DNA of 41,848 nucleotides from a virus. Below, piece after piece: positions 5,178 through 24,622 of this stretch. A program made the position numbers and the translations under genes. The notes beneath the pieces were generated by a model that did not search any database, was not told the DNA's origin, and worked only from the letters and a program-made list of their open reading frames with translations. The stretch lies in IMG/VR virus record IMGVR_UViG_3300035698_010703, positions 1-41,848 of that record; one strand, given 5' to 3'. The stretch's first letter is position 1, and each line of letters opens with the position of its first letter.

Positions 5178-7793
5178 TTAGTAAGGTGCTTCCATTGATT
5201 CACGCTCCTCGAAAAGGTACTCGCCACCGTGATCGCCGCCCACGGTGAATGGATACAGCATGGATACCCCTCGCCCCGAGTTTTCTGATCCGAAGCGGAG
5301 CATCTGGTATCGGTGCCCGGCCACGTAGACGTGGGACGGCACGCGATGGGGTGTTCCCTGATTATTGCATAGGCCCTTGAAGATTCCGCAGCACTGCCTC
5401 CAGTTTAGGCGGGATTTTCCGGCCGTATAGAGCGATTTGACCATTAGATCGTTGACGCTCTTGGTGGTCTTCTTCTTCTCTTTGCGTTTAATCTCCTTCA
5501 GTTCCGTGCCGTCAAATTCCAACCCCTCGGCCCGTCGTTCCCTTGGGGTGGGTTCGTAGCCGCAGTTTTTGCACATGCCGCCTCGGTAGATAGCGCAATT
5601 TGCTACGATTGCGCCGTTCGCGCAGTAGCGATTGCGGGGTCCGACATTTAAGATGTCCCATACTTCAGCAACCATTGTTCGACTATTTGCTTCGGAGTCA
5701 TTCCCTTTTGCATCATGTAGGTCAGTTGGCGTTTGCTGTATTTCACAAAGGGATAGTCCTGCTTCAGCTTCGCCTGCCACGCCCACGCTCCGCGTGTCCC
5801 GTACTTTGAGAGCCAACGGTCTGCAATCTGTTTTTTGGTTAGCCCCTGTTTCCGAAGATTCGCTATTTGCGTTTCGGAATAGGTCACGAATGGATATTTC
5901 TGGTGAAACCGCACTCTCCAGGCAGAGTCTCGATTGCGCTGTTGCGTTTGCATCGTCGCCCAGCGAAGATTGCCCTCTTCGTAGTGCCCATTGTTCTCGA
6001 TTCGACCCAGTGTCCACGATCTGTTCGGTGGCAGCCCCAGATTTGCCACAATCCAGCGTACCCCTTCGGTTACCGACGGAAACCGAAACTCTATCCCACG
6101 TCCACCATAGGTTTTGTAGGCCGGGTGCTGTGGGTTTTGGCAGCGCATCCTCTGCTGATTGACCCTGTGCGCAAGCCATTCTGGGTACTCCGTGCCGTAT
6201 TTCGCAATGCAATGCTCGCACCCGCGAGGCGTGCGACGCGATATTTTGTTGAAATATCTCCATCCTCTCTTTCCGCAGAGAGAACAATCCACTTCGACTT
6301 CGAGACTGCCCTTGCTGGTCCGTGTCATACGGGTTGCTATTGTCAACGGTCCGAATTGGCGACCCACCAATTCCTCCACTAACTGGCCTGCAACCGTTAT
6401 CCTTTGCCGCTTGCGCTTCTTTCCATCCGTCATTTGTCAGTACCTCGTGATCTGGTGTGATGGTTAAACCACCCCATTCTATCGCTTCCTTGATACCATT
6501 GCAATAGGTACCGTCGTGGGTACAGAATTCAACCCCATCCCACACGCGATCACTCAGTCGCACGTCTTGAATCGGGACTTCTCCACGATCCGTCAGGATC
6601 ATCGTTCCGGCGGCAACACAGCACCTCGGGCATTCGATGGTCGGCCTAGTCCCGACTTCGCCCGCATCTTTCGTGGTGATGTCTAGCGACCATTGATGTT
6701 CATCCTCAAAAAATCCCAGGTCGCGTTTCAGATTTCCGCCGTGATCGAGAACGTAACAATCCGTTTTGCCGGGGTGCGTTCTGGAGCCACGCCCGATTGC
6801 CTGTAGCCATCTAGTCCGAGACTTCATCGCAACGCACATCTGAACACACTGTATGCCGGGGACATTAACGCCACGCTCCACGACCTGGACGTTGCAGAGG
6901 TAGTCGATCTCCGCGTCGTTCAGCCACCTGTAGATCCTCCGCCGCTCGTCGTCGTCTGTTTCGCCATCGACATAGGCTACTCGCAGCCCGGCGGCTTCCA
7001 GTTCGGCTGCCGCTTCTTTCGCGTGTGACCTGCGAGGAAAAAACCCGAGTGTCGGTCGCCCCTCCGCGAATTTCTTCCAGTCGCGCACTAGATCGCCAGA
7101 CATACCGTCCATTGCCTCGCAGACGGACTTCTTGGTAAACTCGCCGCCTCGCGTGACGAGCTCGTCGAGTTTCCCTTGGGTCGCCTGGAAATACTTGAAC
7201 GGCGCAAGAAATTCATTGTCAATCAACCATTGGGTGGCAGGCCCCTGAACGATTTCCTTGTAAATGTCCGCCAGCCCGGCGGCTTGCGGTGTCGCTGTGA
7301 GTCCGACAACGTAAGCCTCGTGCAGCCCCAGTTCTTCTCGCTTGGCATCGTGGGCTTTCAGGAACTTGGCAAACTTCGGCAGGTGAGAGTGGGTTTCGTC
7401 GCAGACCAGCAGGTCGAAAGTGAGGTCATTCTGATAGGTGTCCGCCTCAACAAACCAACTCAGCAGCGAATCAATCGACGCTACCTGAATCCTCCGACCG
7501 TAAGCCGTGTCTTTCCCTGACATCACGAGTCCGTGCGACAGGGCGGGGTGTTCTGCGAATGAATCCGCAGCGTTGTCTACGAGGCCGCGTCTATGTACGC
7601 TAAATAGGCTTTTCCCGCTCTGCTTCTCGCCGGGCTCCCTGTTGGCAGAGGCCCCTAGTATCCACTTCGCCACGCGGGTCTTGCCGTACCCTGGCGGTGC
7701 GCACATGATGACGCGACGGTGCTTCGCCAGGGCGATCCGGGTGCAGTCACGGTGGTCGGCTTGCTGGGGGTACAGAGAGGGTAGTTCGATCAT
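5178..7793 (-). CDS. Superfamily 2 DNA/RNA helicase interrupted by an intein
   Basis: The 871-residue frame contains a DEAD/DEAH-like phage helicase of the kind that opens DNA for replication. Walker A is APPGYGKT (residues 32-39), motif II CDETH, motif III GLTATPQ, and motif VI QAIGRGSRTHPG. The C-terminal part has a zinc ribbon whose Cys pairs (CPRC and CKNC) are separated by an intein of 341 residues at 392-732. Without it the host protein is 530 residues and reads IECPRC-CAIYRGGMCKNCGY. The start overlaps the previous stop (ATGA). An HNH endonuclease frame lies inside the intein DNA in another frame. Confidence 0.9.
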   Translation of the reverse strand: MIELPSLYPQQADHRDCTRIALAKHRRVIMCAPPGYGKTRVAKWILGASANREPGEKQSGKSLFSVHRRGLVDNAADSFAEHPALSHGLVMSGKDTAYGRRIQVASIDSLLSWFVEADTYQNDLTFDLLVCDETHSHLPKFAKFLKAHDAKREELGLHEAYVVGLTATPQAAGLADIYKEIVQGPATQWLIDNEFLAPFKYFQATQGKLDELVTRGGEFTKKSVCEAMDGMSGDLVRDWKKFAEGRPTLGFFPRRSHAKEAAAELEAAGLRVAYVDGETDDDERRRIYRWLNDAEIDYLCNVQVVERGVNVPGIQCVQMCVAMKSRTRWLQAIGRGSRTHPGKTDCYVLDHGGNLKRDLGFFEDEHQWSLDITTKDAGEVGTRPTIECPRCCVAAGTMILTDRGEVPIQDVRLSDRVWDGVEFCTHDGTYCNGIKEAIEWGGLTITPDHEVLTNDGWKEAQAAKDNGCRPVSGGIGGSPIRTVDNSNPYDTDQQGQSRSRSGLFSLRKERMEIFQQNIASHASRVRALHCEIRHGVPRMACAQGQSAEDALPKPTAPGLQNLWWTWDRVSVSVGNRRGTLDCGKSGAATEQIVDTGSNREQWALRRGQSSLGDDANATAQSRLCLESAVSPEISIRDLFRNANSESSETGANQKTDCRPLALKVRDTRSVGVAGEAEAGLSLCEIQQTPTDLHDAKGNDSEANSRTMVAEVWDILNVGPRNRYCANGAIVANCAIYRGGMCKNCGYEPTPRERRAEGLEFDGTELKEIKRKEKKKTTKSVNDLMVKSLYTAGKSRLNWRQCCGIFKGLCNNQGTPHRVPSHVYVAGHRYQMLRFGSENSGRGVSMLYPFTVGGDHGGEYLFEERESMEAPY
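5598..6620 (-). other. Intein in the zinc ribbon of the helicase
   Basis: The segment begins with Cys1 in block A (CVAAGTMILTDRG), then block B (GLTITPDHEVLT). It ends with block F (VWDILNVGPRNRY) and block G (ANGAIVAN) followed by Cys as the +1 residue. The usual His before the final Asn is replaced by Ala, which is tolerated in some inteins. There is no in-frame LAGLIDADG or HNH domain; between blocks B and F the frame is open but of low-information composition (rich in Ser, Arg, Glu, Asn, Gln). Insertion is between two Cys of a zinc-binding motif, a typical conserved-site choice. Confidence 0.88.
5648..6433 (-). CDS. HNH homing endonuclease nested out of frame inside the intein
   Basis: The 261-residue frame lies +1 relative to the intein. 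It has an N-terminal zinc module (C50-x2-C53 and C72-x2-C75), an HNH-type core (RMRCQNPQHPAYKTYGGRGI at about 95-114 and GRIENNGHYEEGNLRWAT at 143-160), and two tandem C-terminal helix-turn-helix repeats (about 180-213 and 227-260, both YPFV.YS...WL.KYGT). The core matches a family common in phages; the first Asp of the usual LDRID is Gly here. Its GAGG ribosome site and ATG lie in intein block B codons, and its stop lies in block F. It probably drives mobility of the intein. Confidence 0.88.
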   Translation of the reverse strand: MTDGKKRKRQRITVAGQLVEELVGRQFGPLTIATRMTRTSKGSLEVEVDCSLCGKRGWRYFNKISRRTPRGCEHCIAKYGTEYPEWLAHRVNQQRMRCQNPQHPAYKTYGGRGIEFRFPSVTEGVRWIVANLGLPPNRSWTLGRIENNGHYEEGNLRWATMQTQQRNRDSAWRVRFHQKYPFVTYSETQIANLRKQGLTKKQIADRWLSKYGTRGAWAWQAKLKQDYPFVKYSKRQLTYMMQKGMTPKQIVEQWLLKYGTS

Positions 7794-10007: not shown

Positions 10008-10499
10008 CTACACTCCTCCTGGGTCTTGCGGCGGTCCACCCTGGAATCCGCAGCGATTACAATGAAAAAACCAATTGCGCGAATCAGTGTCGAGTCGCTC
10101 TCTCAGGTGATCGCCACACAGCGGGCACTTGCGAGTGTCTTCGGGCTCCACTGCCCGCGGATTGTCGTCACGCACGGCGAAGCGGTCCTCACTGGCATCA
10201 CGATCACGATCACGCAGCATCCTGACGTAGTTTTTATCGAGTCGCTGCACGGTGACCTGGCGCACGTCGATGGCGAACCGATCCTGGCCGTCCGACACGC
10301 AGACGAACGGCAGGCTGATCGCCTTGATTTCCAGCGGACGCCCGTCCGCTGACATGCGGCTGGACGTGTGTCCGATGCGGCCGAGCCAATACGGCTGAAA
10401 CCCCCTATACGTCGATTGCTCTGATTCCACATCCCCTTCGTCGTAGGTTCCGGTAATCGCGATCCATTGCCCGATGTGTAGACTGTCAATTGGGGTCAT
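10008..10499 (-). CDS. Phage protein with C-terminal zinc ribbon
   Basis: The start at 10499 (MTPIDSLHIGQWIAITGTYD) overlaps the upstream stop as ATGA. The first 90 residues look beta-rich (IGQWIAITG, RPLEIKAISLPFVCV, DVRQVTVQRL), like an OB or Tudor-like fold. A charged linker follows, and a C-terminal zinc ribbon with CPLC and CNRC. It sits between NinG-like and ParB-like genes, so a nucleic-acid role is plausible but not shown. Length is 163 residues. Confidence 0.72.
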   Translation of the reverse strand: MTPIDSLHIGQWIAITGTYDEGDVESEQSTYRGFQPYWLGRIGHTSSRMSADGRPLEIKAISLPFVCVSDGQDRFAIDVRQVTVQRLDKNYVRMLRDRDRDASEDRFAVRDDNPRAVEPEDTRKCPLCGDHLRERLDTDSRNWFFHCNRCGFQGGPPQDPGGV

Positions 10500-11044
10500 T
10501 GCCCTGCCTCCATTATCCATTCTGCATTCGCCAGCCGCCGCTTGTACTCGATCCTCTTATCGACTAGCTCGTCGCGCGAGAACTGGACGATGGAGGTCTT
10601 TAGCTGCTCCAGTCGTTCGACTGCTTCCGGCCCCTGGGTCGCTAGCATCCAGAGTCTGTATCGTTGCGGTGCGCCACCTTGATAACGGTTGCAGTTGGAA
10701 CACTGGGGATGCACGCCGTCTTCCTCAAATAGAATCGCGTTGCGCCTGGAGGCCAAGAAGTGACCTGCGTGGAGTTGCTCCCCGCCAGTGCCACCCTGCC
10801 ACGGGCACACTCTGCCGCAGGTGATGCAGACGCACTGACCGATGTGGCGTAAGACCTGGGTCAGTTCGCCGTTGACGATTGCAGGTGTTGTTCCGGCGGA
10901 TTGAGCCCCTGCTTCTGCCCGTATCATTTGCTGGAAGATCGGGGCCACGAATTTGCTGATATACGTGCCGGTGGAATACTCGCGCGCCTTGTCGAGCATC
11001 CGTTGCCGGGCGCGTCGGGCTTTTTCTTCAGGTGATAGAGCCAT
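10496..11044 (-). CDS. NinG-like recombination protein
   Basis: The 182-residue protein begins MALSPEEKARRARQRMLDKA at 11044 behind AAAGGAATAGCT. It has a Cys/His cluster typical of lambda NinG (Rap): CITCG (73-77), QLHAGHFLASRRN, FEEDGVHPQCSNCNR (H112, C115, C118) and then YRLWM. NinG family proteins act with RecBCD/RecF-type recombination and branched DNA. The neighbouring YqaJ exonuclease supports a recombination role. A longer frame to 11479 overlaps the upstream gene and is rejected. Confidence 0.82.
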   Translation of the reverse strand: MALSPEEKARRARQRMLDKAREYSTGTYISKFVAPIFQQMIRAEAGAQSAGTTPAIVNGELTQVLRHIGQCVCITCGRVCPWQGGTGGEQLHAGHFLASRRNAILFEEDGVHPQCSNCNRYQGGAPQRYRLWMLATQGPEAVERLEQLKTSIVQFSRDELVDKRIEYKRRLANAEWIMEAGQ

Positions 11045-11046
11045 AG

Positions 11047-11658
11047 CTATTCCTTTTCGAGTTCGTCCTTCCGTGCCCTGTAAACTCCGCGCAACGCAGC
11101 TTGTGCTGCCTTTGATGCCGACCTCAGAACGGCACCGATCTCGTCCAGTACGTCCAGGCTCGCGGCCTTCTCGATCTGCTCGATGGCCCCATCGATGTAG
11201 GCTTGCTCCTCGACCGACACCACGGGCGGGGCATCGGTCGGCTTGTCTGGTTGTGCGGCAAGGGGCCGGATGGTAACTTCGGATCGCTTGCCCCGTGTCT
11301 TGGTCAACATGAAGGTCCGAGGGTTCTTGAGTCCAGACATGTGGCTGATCCGAATGCCACCGACCTTGACGCCTGCCCACATCACATCGGTATCGCAGAA
11401 TAGCGTCATTTGTTGCCCGGTCCACTGGGCGGGATCTTCGGTGAATACGGCGATCATCACTCGACGCATTGACTTGCACGGCTTGTACGGTTGGCGTCCC
11501 TCGATTGACACAACAATAGGCTGATCCTTGTCGCCTCGCGAGACTTTTGTGATCGTCACGGTGATCGGGCCGACCAGCAGATCATCGGCGTTAAGCTGGT
11601 CCGACTTCGGCACAATGGACGCCAGCACTTCTTCGCGCGTTGGGTCACTGTTAGTCAT
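11047..11658 (-). CDS. Recombination-module partner protein, possible ssDNA-binding role
   Basis: This 203-residue protein (MTNSDPTREEVLASIVPKSD) has LVGPITVTITKVSRGDKDQPIVV, KPCKSMRRVM, QMTLFCDTDVMWAGVKVGGIRISHM and a C-terminal helix (EQAYIDGAIEQIEKAASLDVLDEI). I know this layout as a conserved phage protein that sits beside YqaJ exonucleases. The beta-rich first half might be an OB fold. It is a candidate single-strand binding or annealing partner by position only. It overlaps the YqaJ gene end by eight bases. Confidence 0.65.
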   Translation of the reverse strand: MTNSDPTREEVLASIVPKSDQLNADDLLVGPITVTITKVSRGDKDQPIVVSIEGRQPYKPCKSMRRVMIAVFTEDPAQWTGQQMTLFCDTDVMWAGVKVGGIRISHMSGLKNPRTFMLTKTRGKRSEVTIRPLAAQPDKPTDAPPVVSVEEQAYIDGAIEQIEKAASLDVLDEIGAVLRSASKAAQAALRGVYRARKDELEKE

Positions 11659-12304
11659 CGGTAAACCTCACATTGGTTTGGGTTGGCGCGACCAGATGGT
11701 GGTGCTGTTTGCGCACCAGTCCCTCGATCCGCTTGATTTCCTGGAGTAGCAATAGCAGGCTCTCGGCTATTCTCAGTTGGTACTTCTCGTCTGGTTTTAC
11801 CCGAATGAGAAACGCCGATAGCTCCGGGTGCCAAACAAAGAAGTCACACCACTTGCGACCGCTGATCAGCAGGAGTCCCTGTACTTGCGGCTTATACTGC
11901 TGAGGGAAAATTCCCTCCGCGTGATAGCTGATAAGCGTTTCTGGTTTTGGGCATTTTATTTCCAATAGCCCGTCATCGCCCACCAGCCCGTCAGGCGAAC
12001 CGCCGTAAGCATCCGTGCCGTCCGGTAAAATGAAGCCCACTTCTTCGATCGCGCGGCCCGTCTGGAGCGTGTACGCGTGCTTCGCGTTCGGTTCGTTTTC
12101 GGTCCCCCACGTCATCCAGAAGTTCGGTTCCTGCTCGGTGTACACGCCGAGTTGTTTCGCAACTATTTTAGCCGCATAACCCGTGGCTTGTGCCGAGTAC
12201 AGCCCCTTGGCTGGCGTGCAGAATTTGCCGAACTCGCTCGCCGTTGGCCTGTTTCGCCAGTTGTCCCACTCTTCCGATTGTTGCTCGCAGGGGATAATTC
12301 TCAT
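11651..12304 (-). CDS. YqaJ-type phage exonuclease
   Basis: The 217-residue protein belongs to the YqaJ/lambda-exonuclease group of PD-(D/E)XK nucleases that resect double-stranded DNA 5'-3' for single-strand annealing. Visible marks are QQSEEWDNWRNRPTASEFGK at the N-terminus, WGTENEPNAKHAY (about 66-78), GGSPDGLVGDDGLLEIKCPKP with D105 and the E115-x-K117 pair, and QVQGLLLISGRKWCDFFVWHP. The start MRIIPCEQQS at 12304 overlaps the upstream stop. All expected catalytic residues are present. Confidence 0.88.
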   Translation of the reverse strand: MRIIPCEQQSEEWDNWRNRPTASEFGKFCTPAKGLYSAQATGYAAKIVAKQLGVYTEQEPNFWMTWGTENEPNAKHAYTLQTGRAIEEVGFILPDGTDAYGGSPDGLVGDDGLLEIKCPKPETLISYHAEGIFPQQYKPQVQGLLLISGRKWCDFFVWHPELSAFLIRVKPDEKYQLRIAESLLLLLQEIKRIEGLVRKQHHHLVAPTQTNVRFTDD

Positions 12305-24301: not shown

Positions 24302-24322
24302 CGGAAGCAGTAGGACAGGCAC

Positions 24323-24622
24323 ATGATGCGACGAGTGGCATTAAATCCCGGTGACGAGTACGGCGACCTGACGGTGGTTAACGAGGTAGAATCGTCAGGC
24401 AAGCGCCGCTTTCTGTGCCGCTGCTCTTGCGGGAATGTAAATGTCGAAGTTCGGCTGGATCATCTTCGCAGTGGGCACACGAGTAGTTGCGGGAGGTGTG
24501 GGATCGAGTGGAACGGCGAGCGGAAGACGCTTCGCCAGTGGGCCGAGGGGGCGGGATTGAAGCCGAGTACGTTCAGGGCTCGTCTCAAGATCATGGGGAT
24601 TGGGGAGGCGTTGAAGCGATGA
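24323..24622 (+). CDS. DNA-binding protein related to homing endonuclease tails
   Basis: This 99-residue protein has a GDEYGDLTVV start, a zinc-type module (CRCSCGN...CGRCG) and a C-terminal HTH (RKTLRQWAEGAGLKPSTFRA). The first part is the same kind of module found at the N-terminus of HNH endonucleases such as the one in the helicase intein (RQFGPLTIATR), and the second resembles their HTH repeats, but the HNH core is missing. It may be a remnant or a domesticated regulator. Confidence 0.7.
   Translation: MMRRVALNPGDEYGDLTVVNEVESSGKRRFLCRCSCGNVNVEVRLDHLRSGHTSSCGRCGIEWNGERKTLRQWAEGAGLKPSTFRARLKIMGIGEALKR

Follow-up and report, generated by a model that had tools for sequence, protein, structure and literature searches.

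A putative HNH endonuclease gene nested out of frame in a phage helicase intein, and related phage inteins with the same layout

In which reading frame, and as what kind of protein, does a phage intein encode its endonuclease? The usual description has intein and homing endonuclease fused in a single polypeptide, and canonical inteins, such as PI-SceI and Mtu RecA, combine a Hint splicing domain, an endonuclease located between blocks B and F, and homing. The question was raised by a helicase gene in IMG/VR virus record IMGVR_UViG_3300035698_010703, of which the whole stretch of 41,848 nucleotides (hereafter the window) was analysed. A sequence-only reading had proposed an intein in this gene, with a 261-codon HNH endonuclease lying in the +1 frame over the same bases. 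With high probability, the locus is here considered to represent a mobile intein in which the linker contains the homing endonuclease as a gene of its own, nested in another frame. The features of the locus are collected in Table 1.

Table 1. Positions of the helicase gene, its intein and the nested HNH gene in the window
Feature	Position	Strand	Basis or remark
SSL2/RadD-like DEAD/DEAH helicase precursor (phage host gene)	5178..7793	-	871 aa including intein; 530 aa if spliced
Intein, 341 aa	5598..6620	-	blocks A, B, F and G by sequence; profile matches
N-terminal splicing domain, block A (CVAAGTMILTDRG) to block B	6405..6620	-	alignment A1; pLDDT ~97
Block B, TPDHEVLTND	6429..6458	-	its codons contain the nested ribosome site and start
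Shine-Dalgarno GAGGT in H-E-V codons of block B	6442..6446	-	8 nt upstream of nested ATG
Nested HNH-family endonuclease gene (putative), 261 aa, +1 frame of intein	5648..6433	-	PHROG, AlphaFold, viral structure library
Zinc module of HNH protein (C50, C53, C72, C75)	6200..6292	-	conservation in nested relatives
Nuclease core (RC...YGGRGI...GRIENNGHY...N...N)	5927..6145	-	near-invariant residues
Two C-terminal helical (HTH-like) repeats	5660..5920	-	repeat motif at residues 180 and 227; model helices
Intein-frame linker over HNH gene, disordered spacer	5664..6404	-	pLDDT <50 over most; divergence in relatives
C-terminal splicing domain, block F (VWDILN) and block G (AIVAN, then C)	5598..5663	-	sequence; model
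TAA stop of nested gene, within block F	5648..5650	-	overlaps D-I-L-N codons

The host gene exhibits two helicase domains (Pfam Helicase_C, 9e-13; ResIII, 2e-10) and matches the DNA helicase family PHROG 16 (1.6e-70). Its intein comprises precursor residues 392-732, running from C1 at 6620 to N341 at 5598 and followed by Cys+1, so that the boundaries given in the sequence-only reading are exact, and profile matches were obtained for both the N domain (7e-33) and the C domain (9e-11). The insertion point is located in the helicase zinc ribbon, between CPRC and CAIYRGGMCKNCGYE, and when the intein is taken out the exteins rejoin as IECPRC plus CAIYRGGMCKNCGYE, a zinc ribbon. The same ribbon, CPRC followed by CAIYRGGMCKNC, is present without insert in related helicases (relatives L016-L059), such as L016, where it reads IICPRCSAMRLSGPECHECGH uninterrupted, and L057, where it is likewise uninterrupted; the window intein interrupts a DNA-metabolism gene in frame, at a conserved position, and this gene has uninterrupted homologues. 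In block A the residues C1, L9, T10 and G13 are invariant in alignment A1, the TxxH motif of block B is TPDH in the window with T55 and H58 invariant in relatives, block F reads VWDILNVGPRNR, and the last Asn of block G (N341) is invariant among relatives. The AlphaFold model of the intein places the N and C splicing parts at a pLDDT of ~97 and most of the linker below 50, and the splicing-domain model has the Hint fold, matching the Ssp DnaB, Mtu RecA and gp41-1 inteins in Foldseek at E values of ~1e-4 to 1e-3. The splicing domain of the window was not reported by Pfam Intein_splicing, and the PF14890 profile gave no useful result on the window. The N and C domains share one open reading frame, which sets the element apart from split inteins and fractured genes, and the linker of ~247 codons sets it apart from mini-inteins, the true ones among the relatives having linkers of 17-56 aa. 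Self-excision and ligation of the window intein would be predicted.

The nested open reading frame was confirmed at its full 261 codons in the +1 frame and sits entirely within the intein. Its protein matches PHROG 3377 (E 1e-18) and PHROG 374 (E 4e-18), and PHROG 3377, 374 and 2081 are matched by 55-58 of 58 nested relatives. The AlphaFold model reaches a pLDDT of 87 and matches BFVD phage HNH/AP2 models in the viral structure library down to 1e-10. Pfam returned no HNH hit for the protein, comparison of the model with PDB structures gave nothing below E 0.7, and no solved structure resembling the protein by sequence or by fold was found; the assignment as a putative HNH endonuclease is drawn from the PHROG families and the viral structure models. 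Both the zinc module and the two C-terminal repeats of the earlier description are present. In the zinc module, C50, C53 and C72 are conserved in 77-79 of about 79 nested relatives and C75 in 51 of 78, and the core residues R97, C98, Y109, R112, G113, R144, N147, Y151, N155 and N167 are almost invariant in relatives. The C-terminal HTH-like repeats are probably DNA-binding. Their number varies: L016 (3158-4192, alignment A4) has three by eye, the window two, and L018 and L053 one each, and this variation is perhaps a way to change the DNA target. Site-specific cleavage of the empty allele by the window protein would be predicted, with the uninterrupted zinc-ribbon codons as its target. The start and stop of the gene also fall where the sequence-only reading had them, within the codons of blocks B and F: the ATG falls in the T-N-D codons of block B (...CACGAGGTACTGACAAATGACGG...), and the Shine-Dalgarno site recurs in L006, L018-L020, L027, L040, L041 and L046.

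Relatives were pooled from IMG/VR scans with N-domain alignments, which are blind to the HNH gene, and from scans with the HNH gene; each scan comprises the best 80 loci, and the counts describe these sampled relatives rather than all inteins. Among the matches listed, 214 distinct inteins carry this splicing domain and 193 of them have a related HNH gene, located in the +1 frame in 131, in the +2 frame in 62 and in frame in none. The remaining matches listed comprise 16 mini-inteins without HNH, with linkers of 17-56 aa, and 5 unclassified inteins, at least 3 of which are cut by the contig end. When phage records were searched with the HNH and, separately, with the intein N domain, identical genes were matched in different frames. 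The nested layout was observed in isolates as well as metagenomes; named +1 examples are Streptococcus phage Javan255, Gardnerella phage AB1, Shewanella phage SFCi1, Caulobacter phage GB2A and APSE-1, and named +2 examples are EBPR siphovirus 2, Vibrio phage 97.13, Pseudomonas phage MR14, the Dhillonviruses Pubbukkers and SO-1, and the Jerseyviruses F12013 and Ent3. The host genes of the class include DNA polymerase A, at many sites, and SSL2-like helicases, and smaller groups look, from their flanks, like SNF2-type helicases, a DnaB-like helicase and a terminase. Two inteins of this class occur at different sites in the polymerase genes of L028, L029, L056, L093 and L133, and some of the double-intein polymerase genes keep both nested HNH genes. 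Nesting as a general property of this HNH family was rejected, as only 2 of 55 HNH relatives outside these inteins overlap another long open frame. The window itself harbors a second short HNH relative of ~100 codons (24314-24619, plus strand; profile E 1.7e-11), apparently free-standing. Judged from the sampled sequences, the layout is not peculiar to the window locus and is the rule in a large class of phage inteins.

Chance as the source of the open frame was rejected both by codon-draw tests and by open-frame counts among relatives and clusters. When the HNH protein was kept and its codons were drawn from the usage of the host gene, none of 1000 draws left the intein frame open; in the reverse test, with the intein-frame protein kept, the HNH frame was open in 0.8% of draws. 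The third frame of the same strand contains 18 stops. G+C at codon positions 1/2/3 is.53/.46/.61 in the HNH frame and.63/.44/.67 in the exteins, with.61/.53/.46 in the intein frame over the overlap bases, and the phage coding signature is present in the HNH frame and absent from the intein frame over the overlap. Among the matches listed, the intein frame is stop-free across the HNH gene in 185 of 185, with 0.82 expected, and by cluster (50% HNH identity) it is open in 38 of 38, with 0.23 expected, indicating that this frame is kept open.

The two frames differ in what is preserved. In 25 related pairs, differences concentrate at the third HNH codon position, with 734/617/1377 at positions 1/2/3 for the +1 pairs and 372/220/654 for the +2 pairs, and in nine Jerseyvirus sequences the variable overlap sites number 19/10/53 on HNH positions 1/2/3 (intein positions 3/1/2). 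As substitutions track the third HNH position, the HNH frame is indicated to be coding. Amino acid differences amount to 0.31 in the HNH frame versus 0.52 in the intein frame for the +1 pairs, and to 0.20 versus 0.36 for the +2 pairs, so that the intein-frame linker diverges ~1.7 times as fast as the HNH frame in the relatives. Constraint on both protein sequences was rejected on this ground, and from the earlier suggestion that 786 bases are under two-frame constraint the openness of both frames stands, but the constraint is lopsided: as read from the substitution patterns, the HNH frame is under purifying selection and the intein-frame linker would only need to stay stop-free. That the linker is dispensable is suggested by L028, which is 99.5-99.8% identical to L029 and lacks 531 nt (177 codons) of the HNH gene of its second intein, a deletion with a 4-nt repeat at its ends that removed most of the HNH gene and left the intein frame intact. 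In intein 1 of L028 and L029 (3001-3564), an HNH remnant was observed that keeps an N-terminal part and the C-terminal repeat, with the nuclease core gone and the loss in frame for the intein. The 193 nested HNH genes among the matches listed comprise 184 intact genes, 8 with in-frame deletions or truncations, 1 with a nonsense change and none with a frameshift; the absence of frameshifts is as expected if the host frame forbids them. Relatives with one of the two frames broken by stops were looked for, and among the matches listed the single nonsense copy was the only one.

These patterns bear on the most durable rival explanation, in which the nested frame is a degenerate relic whose HNH protein no longer cuts and whose overlap persists as tolerated linker. 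The window copy has G at HNH position 143, where D is present in 66 of 77 relatives, and Ala as the penultimate intein residue, where most relatives have the His that is usual, though not universal, in inteins; mini-inteins and HNH remnants are also common. However, the HNH frame appears to be under purifying selection in relatives, the zinc and core residues of the window protein are intact, its composition is coding-like, and G143 recurs in other intact relatives, which renders a relic unlikely.

For the start of the nested gene, a start signal was defined as a Shine-Dalgarno sequence of at least 5 nt followed by ATG within the first 216 nt, with expectations taken from synonymous shuffles. 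Among the matches listed, such signals were present in 67 of 124 +1 inteins (21.9 expected), in 15 of 61 +2 inteins (7.3 expected) and in 12 of 24 inteins without a full HNH (6.8 expected), some of the last being perhaps leftovers of a lost gene. By cluster, 24 of 38 have the signal against 7.2 expected, a value not reached in 200,000 simulations, and 14 of 38 have no clear start signal. The nested ATG of the +1 group is found at two fixed sites, at 145 nt (K-E-V-I codons, often AAGGAGGT) and at 187 nt (H-E-V of block B), the latter including the window, and that of the +2 group at a fixed site of 98 nt. The fixed sites and the above-chance signals together indicate that conserved splicing motifs double as ribosome sites in many members, though not in all. 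Programmed frameshifting from the intein frame, giving a fusion of N-intein and HNH instead of a free protein, might account for the clusters without a clear internal ribosome site, but two different frames are in use and the start signals are above chance at the fixed sites (145 and 187 nt in +1; 98 nt in +2), and this explanation is regarded as very improbable.

A group I intron with an HNH gene, instead of an intein, is the reading of the annotation of Sodalis phage SO-1 (gp38/gp39; NC_013600, L015 2578-3336), in which the nested HNH gene is recorded under the wording 'type I self-splicing intron', and group I introns do often carry HNH genes. Yet Rfam detected no intron family in the window or in eight related loci, SO-1 among them, every insert reads open in the host frame, the intein blocks show conservation and the model resembles solved inteins; a group I or group II intron was rejected accordingly, and hardly any likelihood is left to it. 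Weakest of all is the explanation that the HNH is normally in frame, as in the textbook arrangement and in the in-frame HNH intein reported from cyanophage CL131 (PMC6293099), and that the window represents a lone frameshift by mutation, sequencing or assembly error, since all 193 related HNH genes among the matches listed are out of frame, in two different frames, with none in frame although such homologues were looked for, and with the intein frame open through the HNH gene in all cases examined; this was rejected, in agreement with the sequence-only reading, as next to impossible.

Evidence of mobility was observed in relatives. Similarity to the F12013 polymerase gene was found in 396 phage records; 151 of them cover at least 80% of the gene, and many of the remaining records match just both flanks, at up to 94% identity. 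In the polymerases of S120 and EcoPhCCP1 the 897-nt insert is absent, and IGKA is joined directly to CELGLGYEGG in the empty allele. When Dhillonvirus is compared with Jerseyvirus, unchanged residues differ at the third codon position by 0.23-0.26 in the N domain and HNH, by 0.36 in the short C domain and by 0.55 in the exteins; the two groups resemble each other far more in the intein than in the gene that carries it, as horizontal transfer would be expected to produce. By these comparisons, the element is indicated to be mobile in relatives. Three groups of nested genes appear in the HNH tree: a +2 group (support 88), a +1 group that includes the window, and another +1 group that lies among free-standing HNH genes, indicating, at moderate support, that nesting probably arose about three times. 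For the phage of the window itself, no close relative or empty allele was found in a whole-helicase search of IMG/VR, and a search of the genome collection gave one short match. Alignment A1, run against genomes, and alignment A2, run against viral contigs, gave no conserved stretch. As no close relative was found, mobility and selection are read from relatives with at most 47% HNH identity to the window. Elsewhere in the window, a NinG/Rap-like junction nuclease (10496-11479, minus strand; PHROG 5034, 9e-18), whose start probably lies inside the longest ORF, is located near a RecE-like exonuclease (11651-12304). From 12869 to 40860, 8 of the 10 large ORFs tested have no PHROG match and only portal and head-closure proteins were recognised, suggesting that the phage is far from described groups.

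Several known systems resemble the window locus in part. The ShiLan domain (Arsenault et al. 2025, PMC11855218), in which a phage methylase insertion contains an out-of-frame HNH, is likewise a phage insertion open in the host frame with HNH in another frame, and its patchy distribution suggests homing (PMC11855218); it is devoid of any splicing domain, whether intein or intron, and is presumed to remain part of the protein, whereas the window has complete splicing blocks. The APSE-1 DNA polymerase intein (NC_000935, P45 with HNH P46) belongs to the same intein family with HNH at +1, but differs from the window in host gene and HNH clade; P46 is annotated as an overlapping CDS with an internal start, so that it covers only the later part of the HNH ORF. 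The Jerseyvirus/Dhillonvirus polymerase inteins (F12013, Ent3, Pubbukkers, SO-1) are of the same family with a nested HNH, and empty alleles exist in Jerseyvirus relatives; unlike the window, their HNH is at +2 and starts between blocks A and B. The Ent3 record annotates the intein alone, and in the neighbouring helicase (L014 4852-5222, NC_024204) it marks a different intein, one with a LAGLIDADG endonuclease. Canonical inteins (PI-SceI, Mtu RecA and that of CL131, PMC6293099) likewise have the endonuclease between blocks B and F, but as part of the intein protein, whereas in the window it is a separate gene. Gorbalenya 1998 (non-canonical inteins) and Gosselin et al. 2025 (actinobacteriophage inteins) are cited by PMC11855218 for overlapping reading frames in actinobacteriophages. 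Single cases have thus been annotated (APSE-1 P46) or misread as an intron (SO-1), and among the named phage records examined with this intein, only these two give the nested gene a separate annotation. The class was not found described in the literature searched, Gorbalenya 1998 and Gosselin et al. 2025 (bioRxiv 2025.01.02.630785) being outside that search.

For the preferred reading, a mobile intein with a nested endonuclease gene, comparison among the relatives shows both frames open across the family, selection on the HNH frame, selected start signals and mobility, and for the window copy splicing, separate translation, cleavage and homing would proceed as follows. Translation in the zero frame would yield the helicase precursor, in which the N and C splicing halves would fold across the disordered, dispensable linker and the intein would be excised. 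Ribosomes would also initiate inside the intein, at the Shine-Dalgarno sequence and ATG of block B, and would release a free HNH endonuclease that may cut intein-less helicase genes of co-infecting phages, after which the intein with its nested gene would be copied into the cut gene. Selection would then act on the HNH frame while the intein frame need only remain stop-free, and frameshift indels in the HNH gene would be purged, since these bases are also translated as part of the host protein.

Beyond the window, we lean towards the view that these elements represent a large unnamed class of phage inteins in which the endonuclease is exclusively nested in a second frame with its start signal within the splicing motifs, which arose from free-standing HNH genes on about three occasions and in two frames, and in which the tie to the host gene would select against frameshift indels, leaving decay only by in-frame deletion or nonsense. 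Standard annotation hides this layout, as the Pfam intein model misses the splicing domain and the nested gene is seldom annotated. Overlapping genes would let a free endonuclease be made without breaking the host protein, and these inteins form a natural system, with cases that can be counted, in which to study the origin and persistence of overlapping genes, as it has two frames and about three origins as well as free-standing relatives, decayed copies and empty alleles.
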